Source: Arbacia lixula (taxonomy: Eukaryota; Echinodermata; Echinoidea; Arbacioida; Arbaciidae). Taken from it: a stretch of DNA of 64,000 nt. Below are positions 4,857 to 63,325 of the stretch, one piece after another; the first letter of the stretch is position 1, and the number at the start of each line of letters is the position of its first letter. Both the position numbers and the translations under genes were made by a program. A model generated the notes under the pieces. It had not been told where the DNA came from. It ran no database searches and saw nothing but the letters and a program-made list of their open reading frames with translations. Location of the stretch: contig OZ022586.1 of NCBI GenBank assembly GCA_963669155.1, positions 18,628,285 to 18,692,284 of the forward strand, written 5' to 3'.

Positions 4857-5115
4857 CATCATCCACCATAAACCTACCACTGAAATATCCTTCACCATAT
4901 GGATACCATTCAACAGAAATACCATAGAAAAACAGTCTACCATATAATATATCATAGAAATACCATACACCATAGGACGGCATCAATGATATACCATTGA
5001 CCATAGAACTCCACCATTCAGCTATTGTGTGGTATACCATAGAAATATATTCTACCATATAATATATCATAGAAATACCATTCACCATAGAGCCGTACCA
5101 TAGGAATACCATAGA
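4857..5115. repeat. Diverged continuation of the ACCAT satellite
   Basis: The same CCATAGA/ACCATA pieces continue without the regular 202-bp order up to the edge of the segmental duplication, ending in a short T-run at 5116. Confidence 0.85.
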
Positions 5116-6898: not shown

Positions 6899-7224
6899 CC
6901 TGATGAAATCTGGAACGTACTCGTCCATATACACGTACCAAACCGAGTCACCCACATTGTAGCTTATGGTGTATGACGTCACCCTTTGATCATAATCGTT
7001 TCGGCCTTGCGTGGTGATGCCCGTGATGACGTAATGTGACTCGAACGCTACATTCAGCCACTCGCCAGTGTGTGACGCCGATGGGATCCAGACGGATGGG
7101 CCGTTTAGACGCGCACTCCAAGACTCTAAGCCTGCCGTAAGGTAGCTCGAACTCGTCATGGCAGAGTTTGGAATGGCGCCACGTTCAATGCCGAGGGGCG
7201 CCCCCGTCGTGTTACAAAAGCCAA
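6899..7224 (-). CDS. Gene 1 exon 7: F5/8 type C domain 1, N-terminal two thirds
   Basis: This 326-bp exon (phase 1 to 0) follows acceptor ATACTTCAG and ends at donor GTTAGT. It encodes GFCNTTGAPLGIE, MTSSSYLTAGLESWSARLNG, GEWLNV and VITGITTQGR to the D-F-I-R end. About a dozen residues differ from gene 2. This is the last exon of gene 1 visible in the window. Confidence 0.9.
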
Positions 7225-29192: not shown

Positions 29193-29545
29193 AATGATCG
29201 ATCCGCTTGTGGACAGGTGAAGATCAGCATTCACTACGAACATCCAGATGGAGTGACTCGCTCACGCTGGTGCAATCGTCTGTATGAATAGCAAACTGCG
29301 ATCGGGAGCTTATTAAAGCTTTTCACATTCTCTGAGCCATTCCGCTGATCGCTTCCTTTGGTGTCGGATAAATGCATTAGCTAATGAACCGTAATTCGAT
29401 CGTGTCAAGTCATAAAGACGAAAATTCATTGATTGGTTTGGAAATGAGTCCGACAATCATATGCCATTGAGAGGCGCTGCAAACCAAAAATTTACTTATT
29501 AAAAAAAGTAATTTGCCATCATTCACTTAATCTATCTTTTAAACG
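29193..29545 (-). promoter_or_regulatory. Conserved upstream region of gene 1 (5' UTR and probable promoter)
   Basis: This region is nearly identical to 62977-63325 upstream of gene 2; homology stops at its outer edge. No confident TATA box is seen, though an AT-rich AATAA motif lies about 110-130 bp upstream of the ATG. Calling it a promoter is inference from position and conservation. Confidence 0.4.
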
Positions 29546-39912: not shown

Positions 39913-40053
39913 TTAACAGAGGCCCAGGACTTCATATCGCATGGACGGGTGTCCGTGGTAGCTGCCTACGTGAATTCGCACGTAACGGGTGACCCCCGGC
40001 CATGGCAACACGATAGGCACTGCCGAGTTGCGGTCATAATTTGCTGGATACAG
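39913..40053 (-). CDS. Gene 2 exon 11: F5/8 type C domain 2 end and stop codon
   Basis: This 141-bp terminal exon follows acceptor CTGTATGCAG. It encodes YPANYDRNSAVPIVLPWPG, RYVRIHVGSYHG and MRYEVLGLC, then TAA. The final Cys is the canonical F5/8C terminal cysteine. The 3' UTR begins inside a transposon relic whose end is only 16 bp downstream of the stop. An AATAAA on the minus strand at 39738-39733 could be the polyadenylation signal. Confidence 0.9.
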   Translation of the reverse strand: MYPANYDRNSAVPIVLPWPGVTRYVRIHVGSYHGHPSMRYEVLGLC

Positions 40054-42024
40054 CTGCATACAGACACAAGGAGAAATACAATCAAAATCCTGTCTTACTA
40101 AAAGTTACAATTAATGTGAATCGACCGCAAGTCCAATCCCTGATCTCTAATGCACAGAGTTATGATTGATATCAGTCACAAGTCAAAGTGCGATCAATCG
40201 CAATTCTCTACAAGACAGGGCCCAGTTTAACAACAGTCTGTGTACTTTTATTAAATCCCTTCCCCATTGATCACAATAATTGAAACGCAACCGAACTTTC
40301 AATAAGTATTGCTAAATTGAATAATCATTTATTTCAAAACTTGCTTGTTCATAACCAGGCCTGGTATCCCGTTCAATGCAAGATTGGGCTTTTTTTCTGA
40401 AATGTACTGCATTGAAATGAATGTTGCGATTTGTGTGAGGTAACCCCCTAAAAATCGCTAGATTGACCGAACTACAAAGGGTTATCACGTTCAAAGGACT
40501 ATTAGGCGTAATTCCAAAGAGCACATTGCTGAGAGAACACCTGGTATATCATTTATTCTATTAATGAAGTGCCCCGAGGCCTCGTGTATCATGTACCGAT
40601 GTCAAATCAACATCTCATCAGAGTACGAACATTATGTAGCTTTACAATTGGAAGGCCCACCTTGAAGTTCTATCTGATAATGAACTCTTTATGTGCCATA
40701 TGTGTGCCATTTCTAAACCAGTAATACAGACAAATTGCACGGAGCAGCGTTTTGTTCGCCACCTCAAGAGTTAGTTTCAAATGTAGGAGAAATGAATTCC
40801 TTATTTCAGAGTACTTAGTTTACACAAGACATTGAGGAGGAATAGTAATGGTGGAATTCGTCGAAAACCGTCATAATCAGTCTTTCTCAAATCAAAATAT
40901 AGATTTTTTTATTCGCATTATAGGCCTATATCAGTCAAAAAATAGACTTGTCGTTTTCGAAATAAGGTAAATTTGGTAATGGAAGCCATATTTGATATCA
41001 TCAATCTTGAGAAAATAGTATAATGTTGCAATGAGATATGGCGGTTTGGTGGACCGTGCGTATTTGATATAATTATGCAGTTAGCAACATGTAACGAGCC
41101 GCGTCGATGACGGATTGATCGCGCGCAGTCAAAAGTGTCGTAAAATCTAGTGTGTTTCTGTACAGCTGGAAACTATTTCGTATGAGAATACATGCATTTA
41201 GATCTCTTGCCATTTTCCAGAAGTTTCTTGAAGTTAACTTCAAATGTAGACCCTGCTTTTAAAACGAAATCCTAACCATTCTTGTCATGTATTGTTCGAG
41301 GAGAAATATACTGGATGGCATAACACAAAAACTATGGTTCAATTTTAACACGTTTTTCTCGAAATCAATTCTTTGCGCTTTTCGGACGGATACGACGGCT
41401 GGGTTGATGAGTGGCGAATTGTTCGAGACAGCGAGCTTCTTCTGACATCATCTTGTTCATCATCATCATCATTGTATGATACTCACCGTCTTCAAACCGC
41501 AATGGTCTTCCAGTGCAAACGTCCAATTGACTGCGTTCAATGAGTACGACAGATACACGGATGTAAGCCACTGATCATGATTTGATCGGCCTTGCACGAC
41601 GATACCGGTAACATTACACGCATCCCCCAGGTCGATCTAGAGAGCAAGATAGTGGGGATTACTATTACGTAAGTACACGTTCGTGATTGGGTGATAGATA
41701 CTCCCATTGATCAACTGGTTATTGATTATTTATGTGAGCGCCAAACTCGCTTACTTTTTCTTCACATAATACTTTCACGCTATCTATATTCAACGAATAT
41801 TACTATTACTATATGTACTACTACTTCTACTCCTACTACTACTACTGATAGAGTAACTACTACTTCTACGACTACTACTACAACTAATACTATTACTACT
41901 ACTGCTACTACTACTACTACTACAGCTATTACTACTACTACTACTACTACTACAACCACCACTACTATACTACTACTACTACTATTACTACAACTGCCAC
42001 TTCTACTTTATCTACTACTACTAT

Positions 42025-42062
<38 letters not shown>

Positions 42063-42086
42063 TCACTACTACTTTTACTACTACAG

Positions 42087-42132
<46 letters not shown>

Positions 42133-45100
42133 AGTTACCACCACTTCTACTACTACCACTACTAATCTCCGGTAGAAAGGCAAATTGTTCAAGCTGTGGA
42201 TGCATGAAGTCGAAAGATGGGAGCATGCTTGTTGAAAAAGATCTAATCTTGAACCGTTGGACAGAATATATTGGAGAGCTGTTCTATGATGTCATAGAGG
42301 AGATGCTGGACCAGGTGGTGTCGTCATATAAATGTTTGATGCTCTGGAAGAATTTGGTATTGTAAAACTAACAGATGTCATCAATAAGATCTATGAAGAT
42401 GGTAAATTTCCGAAAGATCTGGCCCTGTCCATTTTGATCCCGATCCCAAAGAAACAAGGTGCAGTAGACTGTGAGCAGCACCGCACAATCAGCCTTAATA
42501 GTCATATCACAAGATCATCCTCAGAATTCTGCTACAAAGAGCACGTAGCAGGATAACACCAGAGATTGGAAAGCAGCAGTTTGGAAAGGCTAATTTGTTT
42601 AAAAAAACCTGACGGAAAGAGCCATGGAAATGCAAAAAGACGCCTATGTATGCTTCTTGATAGTTCACCCCCTGGACTGTATTAATCCACCGACAACGAA
42701 CGTTGGTGGCGCATCACATACAAAAAAATTGGATTTTGCGGGCGGACAGATTCGTGGAGTCGCGCAATCAGTGGTGTGGCGCGGTGTGCGTACTGTGTGA
42801 ATCAAGGGCGTAATGTGTGCGGGAGAAGAGAGGCGGACGATAAAATACGGCCAGTATCTGGACTAGCTCCTTGATTATTTAAAGGCCTCTGATAGAATTA
42901 GACATACACAAATGTTCGAAGATCTCAGGAAGCTGGACCTACTTGAAAAAGACTTTCGTCTACTGGCAAGTCTGTGCTGGAACCAGTCAGCATGCATCAG
43001 AGTTAATGGAGCACTCAGCGAATATATAAATGTTTAAAGTATGTATATGTTGAAGTAAGGCAGTGATGTGTGATGTCACCAGATCTTTTTAATCACTAGA
43101 GTACACTCATCCTGAGGGAATTCGAAAAGGAAAGGGGACTTAAAATTGGAGGACAAAATATTACAAACCTACGACACGCTGATGACACCGTATTTATAAC
43201 AGAACCCCAAGAAGACCTTCAGAGGATATTGGATGTGGTTATCACAGAGAGTGAAAGAAAGTGATTGTCAATCAGCTGTAAAAAGACAGAATGCATGGTA
43301 TTTTTAAAGAATGAGGAAGCTCCAAAATGTAATATCAAATTAAGGGACAACACCATCAAACAGGTATTCGCCTTCAATACCTTGGTACCATAACAGACGA
43401 CTCTAGAAGTACGAGGGAGTTTAAAATGAGAATTACATTACCTAGATCAGCCTTCTCGAAGCTGGAGGAAATCCTAAGAAACAGGACACTCAGAATGGAG
43501 ACTTGATTACGAGTTCTGAATCGTTACATCTACCCTTTGTGAAGCATGGTCAATAACATCAGACATGAGAAAGCGTTTGGAGAGTTGTGGTGAAATGTGG
43601 TTCCTCCGACGCATAATAAGTATTCCATGGACTGACAGAGTAACCAATGATGAGGTCCTAAGATGAGATGGTGTGGAGAGAAAACTGATTATTGAGATAA
43701 GAAGTAGGCAAATTATTTTTGTAGGACATAAAATTAAAAAGGACGGTCTTCAAACAGCTAGGAACTGAGACTAAGTCTCCGGTTATGGCACTTAGATACA
43801 GAGATAGACCACTATTACTACTACTACTACTACTATTACTCCTACTACTACTACTACTACTACTACTACTGCCAAAGACAGCAAATAAGTCGCCAAACTA
43901 GAGTAGCAGAACATCAGGAGACACCGAAGATTACTTTAGACACAGTATTTTAGAGAAATGCTGTGTACACTCGTAAAATATCTTGGCAGCCTCTGCTTGG
44001 CGATATCTGAAGGTACATGTATAACGATCATGACCTCTCGACAGCATGTGGCTGCCTCTTAGCGGCTTTCAGCTGGACACTCTACGAGAACTCATATCAC
44101 CTAAGCGCGTCACAAACCTGCACCCAGATATCCGTGTCGGCTGCGGCCCAGCCCACCCATGCACCAGCGAACACGCCGGTCACTGGCTGGGTGTTGAGTC
44201 TTCCAGCGGCGGCAGTGTGCGTTGGTTCATTTTGGTAGACACTTGATGCCGTGAGCATAGCATCCGGGATCCGTCCGTCCTCTACGCCCAAACCATCTCC
44301 ACGCACGCGCAGTGCGCAGCCGAGCTTTCCAGGAGCGTTAATGTCCACTGGGGAAGACGAAGGTAAGATGTAACTCTTTATGCCCCATGATGTCTTCTAC
44401 AGAATAAGTATATGCATCTGACGCAGCAGCGATGTTTGCTGCCACGTGAAAGGTTAAAGCTGTAGACTAAATATTCCTTCATATGGAAGCTGGTTTTGAA
44501 TAACTGGACGTAGGCGCCCACGTTTTTGGACTTATTTTCGTTTTTATTTTTTAATCTCGATAAAATACCAAAAATTACATCATCATTGATAAAATATTGA
44601 TATCTAGTCAGTGGAACATCGTTAAATAAATTTGTCCACACAAGTTTGGATAAACAGTAACCCTTATTGTTCCAGAACAGTGCAATGGATGAGCACAAAT
44701 ATGTCCCTGATTACATTTAAGGGGACTTAATCCAGTCGCACAAGCACCTGAAATTTTGTAGTAAATTGGCTGGAAGCCTCAATTTTCGGCTTTTAATAAA
44801 ATTAGATACAAGATACATGCCCTCCAAATGTTCATGAGGCAACGTTAAGCGAATGAAGTAGTTGTGACAAAAACATGTATAGCCTTGTTATAACCATTTA
44901 CTCTTCATGATTTGTTTAATTCTCGTTATCTAAGAGATCTTTCGGGGGAAATAATTCCAGGCGTGTGATCACTGGGCTAGGGGAGAGATGCATACCTATG
45001 GCGTACGGAATCGGACCATAACCCAACAACTCTATCCGGAGGGCCATGTAACCAAGATACGTCATGGGATAAAGTCTGACGTCACGGGCCACAATGGGCC

Positions 45101-48100
45101 TTTCCAGCGTGTTGGTCACGTGACTTTCTCTGTCAAAGTTCCCGCCGAATACCTTCAGGATGAAAGGGTGATGAAACATGCGATTTACTTCACACGATGG
45201 TTAAATCTTTACAGAAAGACCATTCATTGGAGACATGAAAGATGTTCTTTATCTATATGTGCAGATTATTTCAATACAGATTGCTATGGAAACAACAATT
45301 TCAAGGAAAACAAGAAATATTGTCTTCATAGGGACGCAGGTGGTCTTTCTATGTAGGTGGCGTTGAATTTTATTGTATATCAACGTGTTCACAAACCTGT
45401 ACTACCATAATGTGATGCGATGTGATGTTCCATATGATGTACCAATGTTATATTTCAATAGGACGCTTGTTCTAAACGCAGCAAGATAGGTAAGTCCCCA
45501 CCCCCAACCTAAGCAAAAAAGCATAACTTTTTTATCAGTGAGGTTTTGGGCAAAATAATTCGGCAGGATTGTTCCTTAATATATTGACTAACCTCTGTTT
45601 AAAAAATCTCAATAATCCAATTAGTCATGCATTAGAGGGCAAATTTTAAAGGCAGAAATTTTACTTTTCAAAAGTCACAAGGGTAATTGTTTATGCCGTT
45701 TTAACAGCACATAATTGGCATTCTTGTGCGATTTTTAAAGTGTATTCACTCAACCATGACACGAAAATTACTTCTTATGTTTACATAACAGGTCATGTTA
45801 CATTTTTGTCAAAATATCAAATTTTATTTTTCACACACAAATAAAGGGTTTTAAAGGTTTCAAATTCAAGAGGGATGAGTATTTGTTAAACGGTGCTCAC
45901 TCAACCAGAACAATAGGTTAAGTGTCCGGATAGGTGTTAGTGCATCGAGAGATGGATGATAAACAATGGAAGGACATACATTATGCACAAGAAATGGAAT
46001 TTATGAAAAGTTCATATGACAGAATCCAAAAAGTTGCCCTTATGACTTTTGAAAAGTGACATTTCCGCCTTTGAAATTAGCCCACTCGTGAATGACTAAT
46101 TGTATTCTAAATGTGATTTTCACACAGAAGTTAGTCAATAAGTTGAGGAAAAATCCTGCCAAATTGTTCTGCCCAAAACCTCTCCGATGAAAAGTTATTT
46201 TTTTTTGCTCGGGGGGGGGGGGGGGGGGCTTACTTTTTTGTTGCGTTTAGTTTCCATCTATTATTGGATTAACATGAAATTCTCAAATTTTCATGAAAAG
46301 ATAAATCTTTAATTTCCTCATTGAATATATCTGCGTACTTCCAAATGAATGTTTTCATTCTGTTCCCATAAGTCGTTCAATCCATGCACATGAACAATTT
46401 TGTTTTAAACCGTCGAGATTTTTTCTAAAATGGCTCGAAGTAATCCTGATAAAAAAGAGAAAAGAATAGGTTTAAGCAACAAGCAAAGCGATTTATTAAT
46501 GTATTTAATACAGAAATCAGTTTCATAACATACCGTAAAAATGCACCTTAAGTTGTCGTGGAGCATATTTGCATTTTTCTCTCAAGAACAGAATTAGCAT
46601 TAATGATTTTAATTGCTGATTATGATGTCATTTAGGTTTAATGTATGCACGCTATCATATACATTTGTAATGGTGTATCAATTTTGCTTAAACTGATTCC
46701 TTTAGGAATGCACATCCATTAATGTATTAGAACATCATTAATTGTAAATGCTAGACACGCGTACCTATATCATTATAAGCTAGATTAACCCTTTCTGTAC
46801 ATGCCGGGCAGCACTCTCATATAATTAAGGGACTTATACTTTTTATACAAGAATGCCTCGGTGGTGGATATAAATGTGGAATGTGTTTTCATAAAAATAA
46901 ACCTATAAAAAAACACATGGATACGTGCGTGCGTGCTATAATACATTCTTAAAAGATATGTTTGTGACTCTAAAATGTGTGTAATGGTAAAACGTTAGAT
47001 AAAAGAAAACATGCTTGATTTGGTGTTGACAATTCCGTGTAGAACATCAGAACCTCAAGCAAAAAAATCCGTGTAATATGCCAAGCGTATTTTTTCACCG
47101 GTAATACACATTAATCCCATAGAAAGCACACTGTCTGATACAGGAAAGGTTAATGCTGTGCACGTGAACATTTCTTGTCAAAGTTCTGATAAGACACTCT
47201 TAAGCTTGAGCTTGCATTATGTCACTCATACCCAGCTCGCGAAATGCAATTGATAGTGGATGGACAAAGTACTATATCACGGCGGGGATATATCGAAACC
47301 AACTAGCTCATGACTGCGTGTGTTACGCGTGCGTTACTGTCTCAGTGTCGCGTCATTAGCAACTGTTAGTAGGCAACCATGTAAATACCGCACCGCCAAT
47401 ACGTACCTACAGTACTACGCGAGACAGCTGGCTGCGTGAACACACGTACTAGTAGGCCTACGCGATATCCATAAAATGTGTGCGTTTGTACGTGCAAAGT
47501 CATAATGAAACATAATGAACATAATGAAACTACGCTACCCTTCGCTTAATTTTCAATAAAATATCTTTTATTTTGTCATTGTCGATGAGTGATATATATA
47601 AAAAAACCCTAACCATTGTGCTGTTATGAACTGGAAAACCCCCAAAGAATGATTAGTATACTGCAGGCATGTACGTGTTTATTAACTCTTTATGTCCCGA
47701 AGTGACATTTCTGCACATGTCATGCGCATAAGTTTCTTTAGAGCAGCAATTAATGTGGCACTCAAAGGTTGCATAAAGATTTGAGCAGAAATGCCCAACA
47801 ACCAGGGGACATATTCATGAAAGCTTACTAGCCAAGTTCGTTACTACAATGCATGCATCTAGATGCACTTTAGTAACTTACAATGCTCAGTAAGGTTTCA
47901 TGAATATGGCCCCAGGGGGTGTTTCACAAAGCTGTTCGTAATTTACGAACGACTTTACGAACGACTGGTGATCCCGTCTTGTGCCAAATGCGATACCACA
48001 CTTTGTTCATCGAGAACCTGATTTAGCACAAGAAGGGATCACCAGTCGTTCGTAACTTACGAACAGCTTGTTGAAACACCCCCCCCCCCCCCCCCCCCCC

Positions 48101-51100
48101 TGGACGCCAGTATACCTCAACTCTTTATGCACAATTTTTTCCTGGCACGGGAAGGATGAATTCACGAGCAGCTTTCGTACTTACCCTAATGGAATCTGGA
48201 ACGTACTCGTCCATGTACTCGTGCCAAACCGAGTCATCCACATTGTAGCTTATGGTGTATGACGTCACCCTGTGATCATACTCGTGTCGGCCTTGCGTGG
48301 TGATGCCCGTGATGACGTAATGTGACTCGAGTGCCACATTCAGCCACTCGCCAGTGCGTGACGCAGATGGAATCCAGATGGACAGGCCGTTTAGACGCGC
48401 ACTCCAAGACTCTAAGCCTGCCGAAAGGTAACTCGAACTCGTCATGGCAGAGTTTGGAATAGCGCCACTTTCAATACCGAGGGGCGCCCCCGTTGTGTTA
48501 CAAAAGCCAACTGAAGTATTAGAGGACAGAGCAATTTGACGTTATAGAATGGAATTGTTGACCATGTCAGCTATATAAACATGTACATCCAAACGCTCAA
48601 AGCTAAAACGGCGCGTATCCACAATGGTGGTTTTACTTACACCGCGTACTAAACGTAGACTAATTTTTTGAGGCGCAAAATAAATCGGATCTTGTTAAAA
48701 AAAGAAACTCATTAATTTTCATCACAGAATCACATTAGAGGGGAATTTCAGTTATTTGCATATCATTACTTGGACAAATTCGATATATCCTATTGATTCC
48801 AAGAACCGAAACAATCAAATGAATGAATGACAATTATTCATGTTGTTTCATTAGGCTTTCCATAGAGTTGGTCGATGTTAAGTACTCTGTTTGCACCTGT
48901 GTTCTGAATACTCAATGATCAATTACATGGTAAAGGTGAGCACCACCTGTTCTGGAATGCACTGCAGTATAGCTCGGTATTGGATACTTCGATCACACAA
49001 TCCAATTTCAAATTCATGCTCTATAATGACATTAATGTTTCAATAAAAAATCATACATTAATGTTATTGCACTTAGGTGAGTTATCGTTGATTAACTACT
49101 CGGTGTTCACAAAAAACCACTGACACTTGAAAAATGATTAAAAGTCAGTTTCAACTTATATCAAGTTCAAATTGACACATCATAAAGTCAAGGGGTGTTA
49201 GATTTCTTAGAGACAGGTTTTGTGACATTTCATTGACTACCTTTTTTGAAATAATCCTTGGAATATTAAATGAGATTTTCACTTTTGGACAAATTTGGAC
49301 ATCAAAACGTGCGTGTATGAGTAATTCAGAACACAACAATGACCATTGTGTATCACACATGTTAATCCACTAGCAACTTCCATCATTTTTTGTCATTAAT
49401 AATACATAGTGCTTCTAGCAGAAAAGAAGTTGTAGGTCGGCATGCGCGATGCAGAATGGAGTCAATGGACATTGTTGTGTTCTGAATAAATTATCTCCTA
49501 CCAATTTATTTTCAGACCCAAAAAGCTCATAAATATTCTAAAGATTATTACAAAAATATTAATCGATAAAACGTCAAAAAACTTGTCTCTAAAAAATTGA
49601 CATCCCTTGACTTTATGATGTGTCAATATGAGCTTGATGTGAGTTAAAACTGCCTTTTAATCATTTTTCAAGTGGCAAAGCTCTTTTTAACACCTCGTAG
49701 TTAATCAACGATACCTCATCTCGGTAGAATGTTATGAATGTATGATTGGTGATTTAAACATTAATGTCATCATAGAGCATGTTTTGCTATTGGATTTAGT
49801 ACTGATGAGACATGACGAAATTGTGAGCGATCCTAACCAGTCAATCATAGTTCGCGACCGTTGAATCGCCGGTGGCATGACGTTATTATCACTGATTATG
49901 ATTGGCTGGTTAGGATTGTTCGCAACTTCGTCATGTCTCACACATTTTGGATTTGAACATGGTTGATATTTTAATGGATCCTGACCCTTCTACAAGGAGA
50001 GGTTGAAAAATACTGGTATTTTCAAAAAGTACAATAGATTTCGCTTAGGATGATTAATAAGTGTTGGGGGCTCAAAAGCGATTGATATTGAAATATAGAG
50101 TTTCTTTTCATTTCTCTTTTTTTTTTAGATTAGAACCACATATTTATCTCGAATTTGCAATATATTTCTGTCTGTTTTAATTATTTTTTTTCACACTTGG
50201 TAAATTTCGACCTTCAACATACAGTGGCAAAAGAAAGCATAAGAAAATGTGGTTTAATCATGGAGATATCAAACTGCCTCACCACCACGTGAGCGATTTT
50301 CTTTCGAACCAGTAACCAGCATAACAATGAATATGACGACACCACTTCGGTGCCCATATTGTCGTTGATTGAATATGTGATTATGCGATGATTTTAAGCT
50401 GATCCATTAAGCCTATGCGGCTAGTAAGTACTGTTCGTCATACCTGCACAGTCAAGACAAATGGTTCTAAACTACGCGGGTAGAGCAAGCAGCAGTGGTC
50501 ACAGTGGTGAATGCCCGACACTAGCCCGCCAGACATTATCGGACCGGTAAACCTCTCACTGGACTGATTTTGTTGAGAGCCAGTTGTCTTGACAACATGC
50601 TCATTATGGCGACACCACTTCAGTACTTTATCGTGCACGTCTGCCCCCCCCCCCCCCCAGCTCACACCCCTTCTCTCTGGATATGTTAATGGCCAAAACC
50701 TGTGACCTGTGACCAATAGGCTAATCTTCAAGGATTGTACATCCTTTATCAACCACTAATCCATTTCTAGGCTGCATCACCACTCATCAACTTATTTTCA
50801 TTCAGAAGCCTGGTCGGAGGAACATTATCGGATTCTATGTCATCAATAATTCATGAACACCCCTTGCACTGGGATCCGATACTGAGCGTTTTGTTAGAAA
50901 ACGGAACGAAGAAGAAACAAAGGCAAAAAACAATTACAAGAGAAGATTGCTATACAGAGATCACCTGGAGATATCAAACAAAAAATGCAATAGGGAATAG
51001 ATGATTTGGGAAAGCAACACAAATAAAAAGGGGAAATGGGATGTGAGAAATGAATGTGAAGTATTTTAAGGGAAAGTTCACGATTAAATCAAATTGGTTT

Positions 51101-54100: not shown

Positions 54101-57100
54101 CAGTTATTCCATATGGCATGTGTTTAAATATGAAATTCTTTTAGACAACATCTCGGATGTTGTTTCTAAGACCCTGGATTTTAAAACATTTTGGTAATTG
54201 AATTAATAAAGAACCTCTGACACGAGAAAAAACAATGTTCGCTTGTGATATACTGTAATAGTGGTTGACACTGGAAGCGGACATGGCCGCCAAAAAAACA
54301 GAGACCGTTGCATCTTGTATTGTGGGACAACTTTCCTCTATCATGATGCAGTATGTAGAATTACCATAATTAATAATCGGCAATCATGCCAGAACAATTC
54401 TAATGTCCTCTCGGGTCCCACTTATGTATGGTTTCAACGACTTCATTTTAATGCTATTCCTTCACGTGATCCCGAAGCCCGAATGCATTGATTATCTGAA
54501 GTATTTCAAGAAGGTATTAGGGGGGAAAATAGGATTTAAAACGCATGGTTCCATAAACATTGCGAAAAAAATGATTATGCGACTTAACAAAAACGCTGCC
54601 ATCCTATTTGCAATGCTTTCATTCCTCACATTGCGTTACTCATTTCCTGATTTATGTGCATGTAGCAAAATTCAACAAAGATACTCAGGATGTGGACGAT
54701 TTCTACCAACTACTTAACGGAATAAGCATAATTAGTACATATAAATTAAACATATCATATAATTTATATAATAGATATAAAAGTATATCATCACGGGGTC
54801 CCACATTTGCAAGATATGCTTCCTTTTGGACCACTTCACAAAACGAAAATATACATATGTTATATTTGTGCTTGTTTTTTTTTTTAATTGATGTTTTGTT
54901 TTGTTGAAAATAACATTGAATCTTGAACTTACGTATTTGGCACCTGTCTCCCTCGTAATTTTCCTTACAGGTGCAACTGAACCCCTCTAGTGTCTCCTCA
55001 CATGTGGAGTCGTGCAGACAGGGATAAGACAGACAAGCTGCTCACCCACGGGTAAGATAATACATGAATCATATTAGGTATTAAAGACAGGTTGTCTCAT
55101 TTGCAAAAATCATGAAACTCAGCAGGAATTAGCAATATACCCTACCAATAATGCGTCTGAAAATTCTACAGTCATAGTTTGGGGAAAAATTCAGGAAAAG
55201 TGAAGAACTATCCATGTTTACGTTTGGATCGCAGCGAGTAGGCCAATAGTCTTTTTAAACCGTATTGTCCCTCTCAACACGCGATGCAGACAATCGCTCT
55301 TATTGAAGGCATGCACAGTAGAGGGGACCTTTGCGCACAGTCTCTGGTCTCTAGGCAGTAGATTTTGGACGAGCCAGACCAAAACCTCTACAAAATCTAG
55401 CGATCGCAATGATTCTGGTAAAAGTCAGTTTCTAGTTTTATTATTTGTAGGGAAATTCTAATACAGTGTTTATCTTGCATTTCCCGTTAAATCTTAAATG
55501 TTCTTTTTAACTCCCAGTATTACAAATAAGACATATAAATGATTGAGCCTTTATCAAAGTATCATCATGTTCAATCAAGCCAAGAGACATGTAAGAGCCA
55601 TAATAGGAAAACGTTTCCCACCTATGGCTTCAGTAGTACTTTGTACTTCATCGTTATAAAAGGTACATTAGTGATTATTATAGGCCCACTAGTCCTAAAA
55701 CGAAATGATATTTTATTTACTCAAAATGTTTGTAGAAATGTTTGAATCACGACTGGAAACTCATTAGTTCATGCTGTATGTACACCATATCATTTAAGCA
55801 GTGAAGTAGAATACATCTGTATAGTTATTTCGCTTTACAAAATGAATTTTTATCATAATTACATTATCATGTAACCTTTTTAGTGTTAACCCAGAATGGT
55901 ATGAGTTCTGTATAACCTCTTCACCAGTTACCATGGCTACGGATTATACTATCATATCCTTACAGATTAGTCGTATCGTATGTATGGATATAGCTTTTGC
56001 CGAAGAACACAATTGTGCCCCAATAGAGATGGGGAAGAGGAACTCAGACAAACAGGCTTGTAAACAGACAAACAGAAAGAGAAAGCGAAGGGAATACATT
56101 GAACCAAACAAAAATTATGACGATTTAATACAATTTACTTTCACCAGATTTCAGTTTCGCTGATTATCTTAGTTTTTCATCACCATGTTGACTTCCAAAT
56201 CTCAATTGACATTAAGATGGTGTATCTCATCTACCGGTCAAAGCTGTGTCAAAAAAGTACATTAAAGAAAGCTTTAAGACACTTGTGTGGACCAGCAACT
56301 GACTTTAACATCGCATCAAATTGAATGGTAGCATTTGCTTTGACTTTTAGACGGGTCATCCAAACGTCACTGGGATGAAGCATGTGTATACAACACACCT
56401 CACCTATACAACAGATCGTATGATGACAAACACGCGTCCGTTGCTGTCGGTATCGCTGGTATTATACATGTACGTTTCTATCGGGTTTATCATTCATCCA
56501 CGCGCTGCGTTTTGGTTATCATTGGCGTATACGTTGCAGTTAATTACATTTTCGGCATCAGCAGGTGTTTCCATCCCAACTCGATATCAATGTTTTATTC
56601 ATTTTGACGCATGATCACCCTTGCATGTCAAAGTGACGTCCTAAAATTACGCACTTCGTTACCCAATGGTTGTAATGAAAACGCATTCACCCTAAAAATA
56701 ATAACTAATGTAGATGAGATTATTCTGGCATCACACGCCATCAGGTTCGACTAAGGAGTTTTCGTTCAATGTCGCGGACGTATTTCTATAGCGCACGAAC
56801 TCCACGGGAGCGAACGGATGAACGGCCGTCTCACAGAGACCTGTCCTCATGATGAGACGGTTTCGCTTTTCGGCGATCGCGATTTCGGATATAAATAAGA
56901 TAAATATATTACATGAAAAAAATGCGTTTACATTTGATTCATAGAAAGTCAATAACATTACAATGTGGGCGAAGCCTATAATAACGGAGCTTGTAGGGTT
57001 ATAGGTTCCCCGTTGCAGTACATCAAATCATATAATTTTGTAAAAAAAAGAAGCTTTTAGCACATATGATGTATAAACATTTGTCTTTATTTGTTTGTGT

Positions 57101-60100
57101 ATGTGTGTGTGTGCGTTTGCGTGTGTGTGTGAGTGTGTTTGTGCATGTGTGCATGTGTGTATTTTAAATATGCAACCGAAGCAGAACACATACCTGGTTT
57201 CTCGCAGTAGAATTGCTGCACACTTGGTATGTTAGAGGGAATGTTCGCAGCAACATGGCCCACGTAGCGTGAGCGTTTTGGGAGATACTGAATGACGTCA
57301 CCGTTCTCTAACGTCGCGGTGGGACACGAATGCTTCAATATGTTTTCACAACCTTCATAAGCTGTAACTGAAAGCAACAATGAATACACTTTGGCGGTAC
57401 ATTAGAGTAAAGGTTGTGTAAATCTAACGACCGAAGATGAAAAAAAGATACAGAGTATAAGCAGGCACCTCACAATGTGAGAACTGGAAACTACCATTCA
57501 TAATGACCGATATAATATGATTGACACTCTCTGCGCCATGGAGACATTTCTGCACAATTGATACACACATATCCCATAGAGCAACATTTAATACGGCCCA
57601 CAAAGGGTTAATAGTATTTAAAGGGATAGTTTACCCTGAAATTAAGTTGGTTTCAGTAAAATCAAAAACATGAAAAACATATTAGTGCAGGTTTGATGAA
57701 AATCCGTCAAAGGATAAGAAAGTTATGTTTTTAAATGTTTGATCTTGTGACGTCGCGTATGAGGTGCCTTCACATGTTGTGTACAATTCCTTTGGTTTGG
57801 AAAATCTAAATTTTGTCAAAAAGATATGCATCTGTTTACGTGTGCATTAGATGCATCATTAGAAATACGATTTTACATACATACCTTTATGATTTTTTTA
57901 TTCAGTTGTCAAAAACAGAAAAAGAGCAATTTATGGAATCATACAGCGCACAACATAATTATGGGAGAGCATCTCACACGCGACCTCACAAAATTGACGA
58001 ATTCTCGTCAAACCTTCACTAATAAATTTCTTTTATGTTTCTGCTCTTATTGAAACCAACTTATCTTCAAGGTAAGGTGAACAATTCCTTTAACAGTATC
58101 CCTAAATTTCATTGATTTATCTCCTTTCAATAGTGGAGTTATTCTCTCATGATGTGACACCTCTAATATCTTGTTTGAGAAAAAAAATGAAGCATACTGG
58201 AATCACTAGCATATTGCTTTCAAGGGGGGGGGGGGGGATCAAAGCCTAGGAGGGGTGATAAACCTATATTTTGGTAATCGACCATAGTTGCAAGCGTATC
58301 ATAGAGATAAGGGGCGAGGCTTTCAGTACCAATTCATAATATTCCACATCCTGTTTCTATTCATGCACTATTTTATACTAGCCTCCTTTTCGTATTCAAA
58401 TAATTGAAAAATCACGAATTCTGCATCTTAAGAAATGGCATCCTTTGTCCTTATAATGTAAAAAAAATCATTTTGATTCGAGTTGTAACATTTTGTTTCA
58501 TTAGCTTGCGAAGCTTGCATTAGCTTGCATTTTGTTAGCACCTTGTATTTAAGGCCCGCAATGTTGCAGATGAGCATACGCAGGTGGGTGGTGTTTCATC
58601 GTTAAATGCAATTCTTTGTTCCCATTGGCAGAGTATCATGATAGACCACGTACTGAGAACAAACACGGCATCTAATTGCTGAGTGGCACCGAAGGTCTGC
58701 ACATCTATCCAAACTAATTTCGTTGATTTTTTACTTACAGATTCGTGTCGTAATCATGGTAATGGTCTGTTCGGAATCACATTGCAGAAAATAGTCTCCT
58801 ACACAAAAGATTAATCACTCTAATGCGGTATTCAATTATGATGAAGTTCCATTCACTGCATCGGATTGACCAACCTACTGCCTAAGTAGTATGCTTCAAT
58901 AATAGATCCCTGCCATTTGATTGGATGTTTAATATTGATAATTCAGTCCATTTACAATGACGACATCAATCGTGCAATTATGGATCCATGCAATATTGTC
59001 CATTGCACACTCGTCGAGACCACCAGTACTCGCGTGTATTGTGTATACGAACCGCGACCGCTCAGCAGCTGTACTTGTGCATATATATGCTTATCGATCT
59101 AATTTGCCTATATCTAGGTGTCATATTCAACAACAAATTCGGTAAAAAAAAAATGAAATGAATAATTTTTTTATTCGATGGATTTTTTCATCTTTCACCT
59201 CATGAAATATTCTGTCCATTGAAGTCATAAGCATTCACTATTTGTATACTAGCAGCTGCTCTCAAAGCTATGTTTAAATATTTTTAAATAATTTTATGAT
59301 AGATATTATGCATTCCTATATATGCATACATTTCAGCTTTCGCTGCTGAATTTTTGATTTTGTCACTAAGTGCTTGATATGGAGTTAATAAGGACAAACG
59401 AATACAAAATTTGATACTTTTTGAGATGTAAATACTAGCTTAGGCGTAGCTGGGCATGTTTTCCATGTTTCTTGTCCGAAAGGAAAATATCTGAAAGTAA
59501 CATTTCATGCAATTTTTTTAATGGAGTATGATGCGGAAATTGTCAAATTGAGACTTTTGTACAGCAACTTGATATCAAATGTACAGCCTTTTTGCCATGT
59601 TGTAACAATATTCCTCGATGGAATGTTTATAGGTGTATCGTAGGTATTGCATGTCACAACTGCGCAAGTATATGGGGTGAGGACAAATCCCCAAATTCTT
59701 CTGCGCATCCGATTTTGTTTATACGTCAAATCCAAGCAAAATCATCCAGAGAATCGGCGGATTCGAATATGGGAGATCAAAGAGGGAATTTTTGTAAAGC
59801 GTTATTTTGCGACTAGAAGCAGAGTAGGATGAATCTGCATTAATTAAATGGCTGCTGTTATTCCACGTGCTTAAACATCTTTGATTATACGTAATCTTAC
59901 GCAGGAACCGTGCGCCTATTTTTTTTTCATGAGTACGCAGCCGATTACGGCGTAGTTGCTACGCAACACTGCGTAACTATATGCAAAGCCCGGTGTGAAA
60001 GCCTATTAACAGGAGATAAATTAGAACATAAAGCATAAAGAACATCAAGAACATGAAGCCAGATGCCACAGTGATCATGGTGATAGAGTAACATTACAAC

Positions 60101-62976
60101 CTTACAACCCTTCCCATTTTGCCGACACGTTAGAAAGAGGCTCTCAACCTGACAGGTTTTTTTCTAATGCTTGACAAACATGGAGATTGTTTTAAGGTTT
60201 TGCTCCTCGTCTTATAAAGGTTCTTTAACCAGAACTCGCCCTCGATTACTCTATAATTCAATGTTAGGGACATGAGTGATTATCTTGTTATTTCTATTGA
60301 AGCTGATACAAATCGCAAAAGTGCAAGACTTTTTCTTCCACCTTTTGTCGTGAAATACGTGGTTTCACACTAGCAATGCTCTTAATTGGCAGACACATAT
60401 ACCATGCATACCATGGTCCGAGAGGAAGTTTTCATATCAAGTACCGCTTGAATGAACAGAACCGGTAAAACACTTTTTCAAATATGTGTAAAACATGTAA
60501 AATGCTACGGGGGATGTTCTCGTTTAGTTGAGTGTACATCTTATTCATACCCCAAGAACGGAAAGGGGAACACAAACAGATCCAATTTTGATGATTTGTC
60601 CGAGAAAGAAGAAGTTTACCTTCTACGTAGATGATGGCCCACGTGATGAAAAAAAGGCACGTTGCCACGTTACGGATCTGTACAAACCAAATGAGGGAAA
60701 CATAAAGGAAAAAAAGCTTATTTAGTGAGCTGGGGGAAGGGTGGGGGGGGGGGGGGGACGGCCAACCCTTTTAGTGCTTCTGGCAGACAAGACAAAAAGT
60801 TCATCTTCCATTTGAAAAGGGAGATGTGCCTGAGTGGCAAACAAAGCTTAAGACCAACTTTTATTTTGAACGGTATTCGACTTCTTTGTTACTATGGTTA
60901 TTGTTACGTTCCATTCTCGATTTACTTCCGATATTGATTGGCTTTGTTTCGTATCACAATGTATTCTTTTTAATCATTTTTCAAGAAATTGTAAAAATCG
61001 TATAAACACAACAAAAAAAAGTAAGTCCCCCCTAAGCAAAATATCATAACTTTTTATCAAAAAAGTTTTGGGCTAAACCATTTGGCACGATTGTTTCTTA
61101 ACTAATTGACTAACTTATGTGTGAAAATCACATTAATCCAATTAGTCATGCATGAGTGGGCAGATTTTAAATGCAAAATCACTTTTGTCACTTTTCAAAA
61201 GTCACAAGGGTAATTTGGGGATTCTGTCATATGAATTCCATTTCTGGTGCATAATGAATGTTCTTTCATTGTTTATCATTCATCTCTCGATGCACTAACA
61301 CCTATCCCGACACTTAAACCATTGAACTGGTTGAATGAGCACCGTTTAATAAATACTCATCCATTTTGAGTTTAAAACTTTTAAAAACCCTTTACTTTCG
61401 TGAAAAAATAAAACTCTGGATATTTTAACAAAGATGTAACATGCTCTGTTATGTAAAAGTAAGAAGCCATTTTTGTGTCATGGTTGAGTGAATACACGTT
61501 AAAAATCGCACAAGAAATTCCAAAATGTACTGTTAAAACAGCATAATAATTACCCGTGTGACTTTTGAGTGACATTTCTGCATTTAAAATTGGACCACTC
61601 ATACATGACTAATTGGACTATTGTGATTTTAAAGACAGAAGTTAACCAATAAGTTAAGAACAATCCTGCCAAATTATTGTGCCCAAATCCTCTCCGATAA
61701 AAAGTTATGCTCCTTTAAAGGGGGAACTTTCTTTTTTGTTATGTTTAGATGTAATGTACCTGCAAATAAAAACATGTACCCTGCTCGTTATATGCGTAAA
61801 GACCACATTTCTTGTTTGTTTCCATTTAAAAGTGTTTCTCACTGGAACCTGATTAAATGAACCTGCAAATAAAACACAAGCGTAAACTTGACACATTTTC
61901 TTGTCTCCCTTGAACAGTCTTTTACAAGTTCTATTATAGAATGGGTGTCAGAATCTCTGCAATCTGATTGGTTAATTACCCGTAATTGCCGTGTAATTTT
62001 TTTTTACTGGCAGCACGCGATATCAACACGATATCGCGACACCGAGAATTAACATGATCGATACCAATGTTGCTTACGCTAATGGCGGCACCCACGAATC
62101 ACGAGAAACTCCGATAAAGTGAGATGAAGAATTGAAACAAATTTTGGACGATTCAGACGCTTTCAATGCAGTAAGTACAAATTTAACTCGAAACATAAAA
62201 TACTCATTTTCTACATTTAAACGCTTTGCAGAGGTGAAACACGTAAATTTGGAAGATCGAACGGAGAAATGGACAAACTCATGACTGAATTCTACGCTGT
62301 CGCAGCACTGTGTGAGACGTTGCTGCGGTGATTTGCCCACTATAAACGTGCATTGCGAATACGTTCATTTTGGGCACTCAATGCCACCCTGGACATTCGC
62401 AGTAAATCTGTATTTGCTGATATGACTACGTCATTTAAATGATTGTTATCAAATAAAAGCGTGATAAACTTGGTAGTTCTATACATGCAGACTCTATTTC
62501 TCCACCTGACATGGTCTATGGAGAAAATCATCTCATATTTTAGCTGTGTTATTTGGACACTTCTCTATGTGAAAAGTCAATAATTTTTAGTCTTGGCAGA
62601 CTTTGATGATTCCAATCATTGATGATCATTGATGATGAAGATGGATCTCTGCAATCTGATTGGTCAATAACCATGCATCCGGTAATTACCGGACGCATGA
62701 TTTTTCCATGCATCCGGTAAATGAGGTTGACAGAGATTTTTCCCTTTTTTTTATTAGATTTTGGGGCCCATTCTATAAAACAGATGATGCACAGGTTTAT
62801 TTCGTGGGTCAGTAGGATTGTGTACACGCGGTAGCTCTGAATTTTGCCCGAAACCCACTCGGCTTCGCCTCGTGGGTTCAGGCAATTCAGAGATATCTTG
62901 TGTACACAATTCCTACTGACCCACTCAAACCTGTGCATCATTTGTATACTGTACAACAGAACGTACGTACCTTCAT
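39913..62976 (-). CDS. Gene 2: secreted EGF-SRCR-F5/8C-F5/8C protein, complete, 11 coding exons
   Basis: The coding exons, in transcript order, are 62976-62971, 60677-60620, 57361-57194, 55037-54933, 53788-53630, 52624-52454, 48510-48185, 45152-44996, 44347-44118, 41636-41487 and 40053-39913. Every junction has AG/GT and compatible phase, and the lengths sum to 1671 nt (556 residues plus TAA). Domain order: signal peptide (1-22), unassigned Cys segment (22-78), EGF-like (about 79-110), SRCR (114-221), F5/8 type C no. 1 (225-375) and no. 2 (391-556). No membrane segment follows the signal peptide, so it should be secreted. F5/8C and SRCR modules are known to bind glycans, phospholipids or microbial surfaces; a recognition or adhesion role is inference. 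I know of no named protein with this architecture. The main uncertainties are the start codon and possible extra small exons. The exons show no disruption. Confidence 0.82.
40060..41480. other. Intron 10 of gene 2
   Basis: No further exon or repeat family recognised. 41457-41475 is a short (ATC)n run just downstream of the exon 10 donor in transcript direction. Confidence 0.5.
41487..41636 (-). CDS. Gene 2 exon 10: F5/8 type C domain 2, middle part
   Basis: This 150-bp phase 0-0 exon follows acceptor TTGCTCTCTAG and ends at donor GTGAGT. It encodes IDLGDACNVTGIVVQGRS, then DQWLTSVYLSYS and WTFALE, the I.LG....VTGI..QGR and V..Y.LSYS blocks. The intron before it (WVQ / IDLG) has no equivalent in F5/8C domain 1. 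Confidence 0.9.
41803..42168. repeat. (TAC)n microsatellite, long and imperfect
   Basis: About 360 bp of TAC triplets with scattered variants, inside intron 9 of gene 2. It produces artefactual poly-Thr, poly-Leu, poly-Ser and poly-Val frames. Confidence 0.97.
42180..43790 (+). pseudogene. Non-LTR retrotransposon ORF2 (RT) relic between two (TAC)n tracts
   Basis: Plus-strand fragments in several frames: VEKDLILNRWTEYIGELFYD; EFGIVKLTDVINKIYEDGKF; ILIPIPKKQGAVDCEQHRTI; KDFRLLASLCWNQSACIRVN; a YADD-box remnant reading LRHADDTVFIT; CKKTECMVFL; and a tail with RNRTLRMET. The order matches the thumb and fingers of LINE RT. Many stops and frameshifts, so inactive. Occupies most of intron 9 of gene 2. 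Confidence 0.85.
43807..43870. repeat. (TAC)n microsatellite at the 3' side of the RT relic
   Basis: About 64 bp of TAC triplets with one variant, same phase and strand as the 5' tract. Confidence 0.95.
44118..44347 (-). CDS. Gene 2 exon 9: F5/8 type C domain 2, N-terminal part
   Basis: This 230-bp exon (phase 1 to 0) follows the strong acceptor GTCTTCCCCAG. It encodes APGKLGCALRV, LGVEDGRIPDAMLTASSVYQ, AAGRLNT and AWVGWAAADTDIWVQ, matching the C..LG...G.I.D..(T/A)ASS and W.A...D..W.Q blocks. Exon and intron are GC-contrasted, the exon being clearly GC-richer. Confidence 0.9.
44996..45152 (-). CDS. Gene 2 exon 8: F5/8 type C domain 1, C-terminal third
   Basis: This 157-bp exon runs from phase 0 to phase 1. 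It encodes VFGGNFDRESHVTN, then RPIVARDVRLYPM and MALRIELLGYG. These match the F.GN.D, ARYVR and MR.EL.G blocks that complete F5/8C. The usual terminal Cys is Tyr here (LLGY), leaving the domain's first Cys without its normal partner. The donor is GTATGC. No counterpart was found for gene 1. Confidence 0.88.
45485..46255. mobile_element. Foldback element family F, between exons 7 and 8 of gene 2
   Basis: The left arm GTAAGTCCCCACCCCCAACC-AAGCA and the right arm, ending in a G-run and CTTACTTTTTTGTTG, mirror each other. The loop has TAGTGCATCGAGAGATGGAT. It is the longest-armed and least interrupted copy besides 61015-61740. Confidence 0.75.
46260..47319. other. Intron 7 DNA of gene 2, outside the duplication
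   Basis: AT-rich, no exon, no repeat family recognised. Ends at the left edge of the copy 2 block. Confidence 0.5.
47914..48100. mobile_element. MITE inserted into the end of another MITE (copy 2 only)
   Basis: The inverted arms GGGTGTTTCACAAAGCTGTT and, inverted, GGTGTTTCAACAAGCTGTT continue through CGTAA/TTACG and ACGACTGGTGATCCC. It splits GGCCCC/TGGACG, which is intact in copy 1 (6761-6772). The right end is extended by a ~22-base C-run. Confidence 0.8.
48185..48510 (-). CDS. Gene 2 exon 7: F5/8 type C domain 1, N-terminal two thirds
   Basis: This 326-bp exon runs from phase 1 to phase 0. It starts GFCNTTGAPLGIE, then IPNSAMTSSSY, LESWSARLNG, WIPSA, GEWLNV, YVITGITTQGR, VTSYTISYN and W, ending at D-x-I-R. 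These are the successive conserved blocks of an F5/8C (discoidin) domain. The donor is GTAAGT and the acceptor ATACTTCAG. It continues into 45152-44996. Confidence 0.92.
48995..49800. mobile_element. Long foldback element with a MITE at its centre (copy 2 only)
   Basis: The arms are about 250-270 bp. They include CATGCTCTATAATGACATTA against its complement at about 49765, GTTATCGTTGATTAACTAC against GTAGTTAATCAACGATAC, and AATTGACACATCATAAAGTC against GACTTTATGATGTGTCAA. The centre is 49323-49486. Confidence 0.8.
49323..49486. mobile_element. Best copy of the ~165-bp MITE family
   Basis: Terminal inverted repeats ATTCAGAACACAACAATG at both ends; core CCACTAGCAACTTCCATCA. It defines the family ends. 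Confidence 0.75.
49803..50200. repeat. Dispersed inverted-repeat element, reverse copy at 63510-63850
   Basis: An internal hairpin at 49803-49945 (GAGACATGACGAA ... TTCGTCATGTCTC, with GAGCGATCCTAACCAG in the stems). The part after it, including TGGATCCTGACCCTTCTA and AGAACCACATATTTATCTCG, recurs inverted at 63520-63850. Confidence 0.7.
50205..51060. other. Intron 6 DNA of gene 2, no gene recognised
   Basis: No recognisable exon. A C-run at 50644-50658 lies inside an unsupported open frame. Confidence 0.5.
51070..51450. mobile_element. Worn TTAA family element
   Basis: The left end GGGAAAGTTCACGATTAAATC follows TTAA at 51066-51069. The right part (CTTCAGGGCACACGTTCCCT) mirrors it, with the TTAA mutated to CTAA. 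Confidence 0.55.
51997..52443. mobile_element. TTAA-flanked non-autonomous element next to gene 2 exon 6
   Basis: Left TTAA at 51993-51996, right TTAA at 52444-52447. The inverted ends are GATAGTTCGCCCTGAA and TTCAGGGTGAATTATCCC. TTAA target duplication and terminal repeats fit a piggyBac-like MITE; no transposase is encoded. Confidence 0.75.
52454..52624 (-). CDS. Gene 2 exon 6: SRCR domain, second half
   Basis: This 171-bp phase 1-1 exon follows acceptor TCTCAACAG and ends at donor GTATGT. It encodes ASVRCPTNASNITECIRQD ... IIGVVCC, matching the SRCR C-terminal half (V.C...E..I..C ... GVVC). Two N-glycosylation sequons (NAS, NIT) lie between the cysteines. The gene 1 version differs by one residue. 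The end of a TTAA-flanked element abuts the donor hexamer. Confidence 0.88.
53630..53788 (-). CDS. Gene 2 exon 5: SRCR domain, first half
   Basis: This 159-bp phase 1-1 exon encodes SIGSVQLVGGNINNEGTVVF, then ADGWTSDASELVCQSLGF, matching the SRCR start (VRLVGG ... GW ... A..VC..LGF). The Cys expected in the WGTVC position is replaced (LYLVH). The donor is GTACTG, weaker than most here but identical in gene 1. Confidence 0.88.
54933..55037 (-). CDS. Gene 2 exon 4: EGF-like domain
   Basis: This 105-bp phase 1-1 exon encodes a full EGF-like module with six cysteines: CLSYPCLHDSTCEE, then GFSCTCKENYEGDRCQ. The Y/F-x-G-x-x-C ending (YEGDRC) is canonical. The Asp/Asn pattern for calcium binding is not evident. 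The acceptor is GTGAGCAG and the donor is GTAAGT. Confidence 0.88.
57194..57361 (-). CDS. Gene 2 exon 3: Cys-containing segment after the signal peptide
   Basis: This is a 168-bp symmetric phase 1-1 exon with donor GTATGT. It encodes a segment starting YEGCENILKHSC and ending VQQFYCEKP, with three cysteines and a central ENGDVIQYLPKRSRY stretch. A relation to CCP/sushi was considered, but the four-Cys pattern and Trp are absent, so I leave the domain unassigned. The gene 1 copy is clearly homologous with several substitutions, making it the most diverged of the shared exons. Confidence 0.75.
57622..58089. mobile_element. TTAA family element, full length (copy 2)
   Basis: 468 bp between TTAA at 57618-57621 and 58090-58093. 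It starts AGGGATAGTTTACCCTGAAA and ends, inverted, AGGAATTGTTCACC. Subterminal GATGAAAATCCGTCAAAGGA and GACGAATTCTCGTCAAACC-type motifs mirror each other. No transposase. Confidence 0.75.
58228..58238. repeat. G-run
   Basis: A short pure G tract in intron 2 of gene 2. Confidence 0.9.
60620..60677 (-). CDS. Gene 2 exon 2: signal-peptide core
   Basis: These 58 bp follow acceptor TTTGTACAG and end at donor GTAAAC. They encode IRNVATCLFFITWAIIYVE plus one base, entering phase 0 and leaving phase 1. Spliced to exon 3, the junction reads V-E-A then YEGC, a good signal-peptidase site (small residue at -1, Val at -3). The matching exon in gene 1 differs by a few residues in the core but stays hydrophobic. 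Confidence 0.65.
61015..61740. mobile_element. Foldback element family F, single copy in copy 2
   Basis: The left junction matches the left junction of 25550 in copy 1, and the right junction matches the right junction of 28870. This single element stands where copy 1 has two with ~1 kb between them. Confidence 0.75.
61937..62782. mobile_element. Insertion in intron 1 of gene 2 with TATAGAATGGG ends
   Basis: The left end TATAGAATGGGTGTCAGAAT matches the inverted right end TATAGAATGGGCCCC. CTCTGCAATCTGATTGGT recurs at 61955 and 62647. Copy 1 lacks the block. It carries a possible tyrosine-recombinase-like fragment (62105-62450). Confidence 0.65.
62105..62450 (+). pseudogene. Possible Crypton-like (DUF3504-type) recombinase fragment
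   Basis: Plus-strand pieces DEELKQILDDSDAFNA, then, in other frames, MDKLMTEFYAVAA and LRIRSFWALNA resemble the N-terminal region shared by Crypton-derived proteins (EL..ILD..D..NT...L...FY). They are broken by stops and frame changes, and a GTAAGT...TTTGCAG pair lies between the first two. The catalytic region is not seen. From memory of the family only, so low confidence. Confidence 0.3.
62785..62945. repeat. Hairpin element next to gene 2 exon 1
   Basis: GATGATGCACAGGTTT at the left pairs with AAACCTGTGCATCATTT at the right, and the arms run about 75 bp (TGGGTCAGTAGGA, TGTGTACA, CTCTGAATT). It ends only 26 bp from the exon 1 donor side. Confidence 0.8.
62971..62976 (-). CDS. Gene 2 exon 1, coding end (start codon ATG AAG)
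   Basis: The exon ends ATGAAG followed by donor GTACGT. Joined to exon 2 it gives MKIRNVATCLFF, a signal peptide with basic n-region and hydrophobic core. The ATG has A at -3. An in-frame upstream reading with ATGs at about 63033 and 63027 would add about 19-21 residues (from MFVVNADLHL) and cannot be excluded. The transcription start was not located; an AATAA-containing stretch near 63091-63106 is only a weak TATA candidate. Confidence 0.6.
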
Positions 62977-63325
62977 AATGATCGATCCGCGAGTGGACAG
63001 GTGAAGATCAGCATTCACTACGAACATCCACATGGAGTGACTCGCTCACGCTGGTGCAATCGTCTGTATGGATAGCAAACTGCGATCGGGAGCTTATTAA
63101 AACTTTCACATTCTCTGAGCCATTCCGCTGATCACTTCCTTTGGTGTCGCATAAATGCATTAGCTAATAAACCGTAATTCGATCGTGTCAAGTCATAATG
63201 ACTCAAATTGATGGATTGGTTTGGAAATGAGTCCGACAATCATATGCCATGGAGAGGCGCTGCAAACCAACAAATTTACTGTTCAAAAAAATATTTGCCG
63301 TCATTCCATTAATCTATCTTTTCAG
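62977..63325 (-). promoter_or_regulatory. Conserved upstream region of gene 2 (5' UTR and probable promoter)
   Basis: This region aligns with 29193-29545 upstream of gene 1 with few differences. It marks the upstream limit of the segmental duplication. Transcription start and core elements were not identified. Confidence 0.4.

Follow-up and report, generated by a model that had tools for sequence, protein, structure and literature searches.

An eleven-exon gene and its tandem paralogue in the sea urchin Arbacia lixula encode mosaic EGF-SRCR-F5/8C-F5/8C proteins predicted to be secreted

We identify in the sea urchin Arbacia lixula a tandem pair of genes for a mosaic protein that carries an EGF domain, an SRCR domain and two F5/8C domains behind a hydrophobic leader, and we find that both members of the pair retain an uninterrupted reading frame and a full set of splice sites. 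The right-hand gene lies entirely within the window, the 64,000-nucleotide stretch of DNA analysed here (C11:18628285-18692284, in a genome of 607 Mb and 590 contigs), and its left-hand copy extends beyond the window's edge. To the sequence-only reading that drew attention to the right-hand gene, we add the tandem paralogue, relatives with three SRCR domains on contig C21, an N-terminal module encoded by exon 3 that belongs to no Pfam family, and an unusual cysteine pattern in the SRCR domain. As to function, the composition of the protein tentatively points to a soluble recognition or bridging factor with opsonin- or aggregation-like activity, a role that we regard as quite possible.

We rebuilt the right-hand gene from the raw sequence on the minus strand, running from 62976 to 39913, as a single open frame of 1671 nt that encodes 556 amino acids and a stop, with the C-terminal end ...VLGLC*. 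All ten introns are GT-AG, the exon phases agree and internal stops are absent, confirming that the gene is real and the model complete (Table 1). In coordinates, exon number and length, this rebuild reproduces the earlier proposal of eleven exons joined into one 1671-nt frame from a signal peptide to a terminal Cys-stop. The proposal had also described the assembly as free of forced choices, which is true of the frame, the phases and the 10/10 GT-AG introns but not of the exon 3 acceptor, where the right copy offers a second AG 6 nt from the first (ttgctttcag/ttacag); the left copy has the downstream AG only, which supports the downstream acceptor chosen for exon 3. The expectation that such short exons would escape ORF scans holds for most of them, yet exons 3, 4 and 7 of the eleven lie within listed stop-to-stop frames of ≥100 aa. 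Phase-1 introns flank exon 3, exon 4, exons 5+6 and exons 7+8, the pattern expected of exon shuffling.

Self-comparison of the window revealed a diverged duplicate, with much of 47-63 kb matching 5-29 kb. Within it lies the tandem paralogue, which begins at 29192 and runs to a point 13 kb left of the window. All eleven of its exons were found when the left flank was included, and they form a frame of 1671 nt with no indel relative to the right copy and GT-AG at 10/10 introns. A mosaic gene made of short exons could in this way be detected by eye and confirmed through comparison with its paralogue.

Table 1 Exons of the two C11 genes, in window coordinates unless a contig is given.
Feature	Position	Strand	Basis
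Exon 1, coding part only 6 nt (ATGAAG)	62971..62976	-	ATG followed by GT donor; left copy identical
Exon 2, remainder of leader: MK, then IRNVATCLFFITWAIIYVE(A)	60620..60677	-	3/58 mismatches vs left copy; signal peptide by eye
Exon 3, N-terminal module, aa 22-77, without Pfam family	57194..57361	-	Rebuilt gene model and Pfam
Exon 4, EGF domain	54933..55037	-	PF00008, E=1.6e-6
Exon 5, first half of SRCR	53630..53788	-	PF00530, E=3e-8 over exons 5+6
Exon 6, second half of SRCR	52454..52624	-	PF00530, E=3e-8 over exons 5+6
Exon 7, 5' part of first F5/8C	48185..48510	-	PF00754, best stretch aa 246-373
Exon 8, 3' part of first F5/8C	44996..45152	-	Gene model and Pfam
Exon 9, part 1 of second F5/8C, RGD at aa 399	44118..44347	-	Gene model and Pfam
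Exon 10, part 2 of second F5/8C	41487..41636	-	Gene model and Pfam
Exon 11, part 3 of second F5/8C, Cys-stop	39913..40053	-	Gene model and Pfam
Paralogue exon 1	29187..29192	-	Comparison with right copy
Paralogue exon 2	24672..24729	-	Comparison with right copy
Paralogue exon 3	19328..19495	-	Comparison with right copy
Paralogue exon 4 (EGF)	10768..10872	-	Comparison with right copy
Paralogue exon 5 (SRCR)	9415..9573	-	Comparison with right copy
Paralogue exon 6 (SRCR)	8685..8855	-	Comparison with right copy
Paralogue exon 7 (F5/8C)	6899..7224	-	Comparison with right copy
Paralogue exons 8-11	Left of window, within C11:18614994-18624086	-	Comparison with right copy

A Pfam run on the spliced product recovered the proposed order of EGF, SRCR, F5/8C and F5/8C, with every domain above its curated cut-off and all of them downstream of the leader and the exon-3 module. 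The EGF domain occupies aa 79-109 and the SRCR domain aa 122-220 (34.3 bits against a cut-off of 26.1), which places the product in the SRCR superfamily, and F5_F8_type_C was matched in two stretches (E=1.3e-43, 148.6 bits against a cut-off of 28.2), which places it equally among discoidin-domain proteins; Pfam found no further named domain in the 556 residues. The N-terminus bears a leader that is hydrophobic by eye, MKIRNVATCLFFITWAIIYVEA. The 56-residue exon-3 module gave no Pfam match at E≤1, and when folded alone it reached a mean pLDDT of 60.6 and a pTM of 0.38. Searching the genome with this module at E≤1 returned three matches among six scored candidates, all on C11: the module itself in each gene of the pair, and the EGF next to it.

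The SRCR domain departs from the usual cysteine pattern. Its only cysteines are at 159, 192, 202, 220 and 221; by eye, it lacks both the cysteine of the TVC motif (His in the right copy, Gln in the left) and the cysteine that precedes GVVC, and the full set of 20 cysteines in the protein is the same in both C11 copies. We take the two absent cysteines to be partners under group A pairing, so that one disulphide would have been lost as a unit. A bond might form between the spare cysteine of the SRCR CC pair and the cysteine that opens the first F5/8C domain, tying the two domains together, and an SRCR domain without two of its usual cysteines may be structural rather than a binding module. With five cysteines, the domain is a variant outside groups A, B and C, for which a survey of SRCR genes gives six, eight and seven conserved cysteines, respectively (PMC10855680).

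Relatives of the pair were found elsewhere in the genome. The whole-protein search yielded at least 69 matches (1347 candidates, 78 scored), 18 of the rows listed being exons 3 to 11 of both C11 genes; in domain searches, SRCR gave at least 150 matches of 924 candidates and F5/8C at least 51 of 96. Two loci on C21, at ~15.737-15.747 Mb and 3.770-3.797 Mb, read piecewise as EGF-SRCR-SRCR-SRCR-F5/8C-F5/8C-stop, an order established by checking pieces rather than whole gene models, with five pieces above the Pfam cut-off (the EGF and three SRCRs of one locus and one SRCR of the other). Like the C11 genes, both loci have an EGF, a cysteine-poor last SRCR with a CC end, two F5/8C domains and a stop directly after the second. 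The two cysteines missing from the window SRCR are missing from their last SRCR too, which has CCP at its end, and the F5/8C that follows has Cys at its start and Gly-Tyr at its end. Unlike the C11 genes, they carry three SRCRs rather than one, and their last SRCR is contained in a single open stretch. The genome search at E≤1 detected no exon-3 module at these loci, and exon-3-module matches of E 0.3-0.65 at C21 were taken as chance.

In small trees, the window SRCR grouped with the last C21 SRCRs rather than with the first two (support 99/100), and the first F5/8C grouped with its C21 counterpart (support 91/91, short of the 95 that the tool sets as its mark), whereas no such grouping was obtained for the second F5/8C. 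A cysteine-poor SRCR with a CC end followed by an F5/8C, both grouping in this way, is found in the C11 pair and the two C21 loci, and we use this combination to delimit a local family. When the SRCR-F5/8C piece of C21 was run against the genome at E≤1e-5, 84 candidates were scored and 10 matched, and its SRCR portion was recovered at no place other than the two C21 loci. The SRCR of the window is divided between two exons and fell short of the threshold of that search, and the link to C21 therefore rests on the piecewise order, the cysteine pattern and the trees. The SRCR-F5/8C core looks to be common to C11 and C21 by descent; the history of SRCR number and the ancestry of the second F5/8C are less settled. 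A missing C-terminal cysteine in F5/8C does not set this family apart, as it is absent from F5/8C pieces on C20 and C9 as well. Elsewhere on C21, the locus at 15723710-15729336 reads EGF-SRCR-SRCR with two more EGFs after it and is possibly a shuffled relative, and EGF and SRCR pieces also occur at 15.756-15.758 Mb.

The modules themselves are familiar in echinoderms. According to the SRCR survey, which covers 29 animals, F5/8C ranks among the top five partner domains of SRCR in both S. purpuratus, a sea urchin, and A. planci, a starfish; for the former it gives a count of 36 F5/8C (8.96%), and it assigns ~70% of sea urchin SRCR genes to tandem clusters (PMC10855680). The C11 genes share with this superfamily both their module types, F5/8C and EGF included, and their tandem arrangement; the excerpted text of the survey gives partner domains, and neither the order nor the cysteine pattern of the C11 gene. 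The publication of F5/8C as a frequent SRCR partner reduces the novelty implied for the C11 gene, and the intact tandem copy and two longer C21 relatives, which rule out a single-copy novelty, mark the gene as a variant of a familiar protein rather than a wholly new one. Among the matches listed from excerpts of the open-licence PMC literature, we found no name for the EGF-SRCR-F5/8C-F5/8C order. What makes this variant worth recording, in a lineage rich in modular secreted recognition proteins, is its particular domain order, its unusual SRCR and its tandem arrangement; it extends the large repertoire of such proteins in echinoderms by a member that is well defined and open to testing.

A lectin-like or immune role, suggested earlier for the product, is plausible on the basis of its modules. 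The signal peptide would direct the product to secretion, leaving it soluble in body fluid or on tissue surfaces, where the F5/8C pair and the SRCR may attach to a glycan, to a protein or to the surface of a microbe. Cells or other copies of the protein could then be engaged through the N-terminal part and the EGF, possibly with the RGD of the second F5/8C, and the two activities combined would amount to opsonization or aggregation. ApSRCR1 of the sea star Asterina pectinifera offers a parallel, although as a multi-SRCR protein it is set apart from the C11 product, by description rather than by sequence. It resembles the predicted C11 product in being a secreted SRCR protein, and it is described as an opsonin for which bacterial binding and clearance have been reported (PMC7308585).

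Our best guess ranks opsonin-like bridging first and adhesion second. The adhesion reading, which we consider rather unlikely, holds that the product is a Del-1-like extracellular-matrix or cell-adhesion protein that binds integrin via the RGD and matrix glycans via F5/8C, acting in development, regeneration or tissue adhesion and not in immunity. It draws support from the EGF, the tandem F5/8C domains and an RGD kept in both C11 copies; in lactadherin (MFG-E8) and Del-1, which are secreted, an EGF likewise lies upstream of two F5/8C domains. In those proteins, however, no other domain is known to stand between the EGF and the F5/8C pair and the RGD is in an EGF domain, whereas the C11 product has an SRCR at that point, which is not known as a part of Del-1, as well as an extra N-terminal module and an EGF without RGD. 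The sole RGD of the product lies in the second F5/8C rather than in an EGF loop and is missing from the corresponding C21 segments printed for comparison, and an RGD within 556 aa is not rare by chance. We accordingly rejected membership in the lactadherin/Del-1 group on the intervening SRCR and the position of the RGD.

More improbable still is a lactadherin-like bridge to phosphatidylserine for the clearance of dying cells. The F5/8C part does match lactadherin and factor V/VIII, along with neuropilin, in a sequence search of the PDB (best 60 of 128 matches), the neuropilin-2 alignment spanning both F5/8C domains (aa 230-554). Tentatively against such binding, in an alignment to factor VIII, which compares sequence only, spike 1 of the first F5/8C has Gly and Leu at the positions that we take to correspond to membrane-inserting hydrophobic residues, and in spike 3, which reads GRHEYDH, those positions fall in a gap. 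Factor V/VIII and neuropilin share the tandem F5/8C arrangement with the C11 product and carry, respectively, cupredoxin-like A domains and CUB domains; Pfam found neither A-type nor CUB domains in the product, which separates it from factor V/VIII.

Comparison of the two C11 copies bears on whether the genes work at all. Their proteins differ at 54 of 556 residues, with dN of 0.0486 and dS of 0.0973 (NG86, 1671 nt). By region, dN and dS were 0.024 and 0.100 in the EGF, 0.016 and 0.037 in the SRCR, 0.037 and 0.127 in the first F5/8C, and 0.082 and 0.153 in the second; the leader and exon 3 show replacement changes only (0.057 and 0; 10 of 77 residues), too few to support a claim of selection. 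Aligned non-coding DNA contains 173 indel events in 12028 nt and differs at 11.5% of sites (JC distance 0.125), against no indel in the 1566 coding bases of the same alignment chain; exon 4 falls outside that chain, and direct exon comparison covers all 1671 nt, for which the Poisson estimate of zero indels at the non-coding rate is 3.6e-11. With 173 non-coding indels and none in the exons, both frames look constrained, and both C11 genes are very probably functional or recently so. That they are instead non-functional duplicates or a chance assembly of exon-like fragments is highly improbable and was rejected: the overall dN/dS of ~0.5, which could mean relaxed constraint, and the long repeat-bearing introns fit such an account, but the absence of indels and the splice sites kept at 10/10 introns in each copy do not.

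Within the F5/8C domains, the putative ligand spikes differ between copies at 15 of 66 residues compared with 21 of 255 elsewhere (Fisher p=0.0018; p=0.011 for the first domain and p=0.061 for the second). The spike borders were set by motif, post hoc, after both sequences were known, so this difference is a lead and not a test. The tandem pair, with its identical gene structure, offers a natural comparison for change in ligand-binding loops after duplication. A broader conjecture, which we consider doubtful, is that the C11 genes belong to a family, in this genome, of secreted SRCR-F5/8C recognition proteins forming a modest and diversifying group of lectin-like humoral factors. Tandem duplicates in it would share an unchanging framework, in which a disulphide-depleted SRCR is bonded covalently to the first F5/8C at the CCP..FC junction, while their F5/8C ligand spikes diverge and each copy acquires its own target.

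Several non-coding blocks are unusually similar between the copies. An intron segment of ~1 kb (59366-60385 / 22790-23803) is 93% identical, above most non-coding blocks, possibly through gene conversion or as conserved regulatory sequence, and the short blocks 43539-43754 and 47643-47916 also reach 92-93% identity. The 5' flank with the first exon (62947-63322 / 29163-29540) is likewise 93% identical, which suggests a kept promoter region.

The window holds other elements as well. Between the two C11 genes, open frames at 31421-32603 (+) have a RING/B-box (TRIM-type) look by eye, with nothing above the Pfam cut-off. Intron 7 of the left paralogue contains a tandem array (3452-4974) with a unit of ~202 bases and offset self-alignments that are 83-96% identical. 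In intron 3 of the same gene, on the opposite strand, lies a LINE-type element (15048-18823, +) in which Pfam recognizes two distinct frames, one for an endonuclease (Exo_endo_phos, 6.6e-11) and the other for a reverse transcriptase (RVT_1, 4.9e-24; zf-RVT, 1.7e-9).
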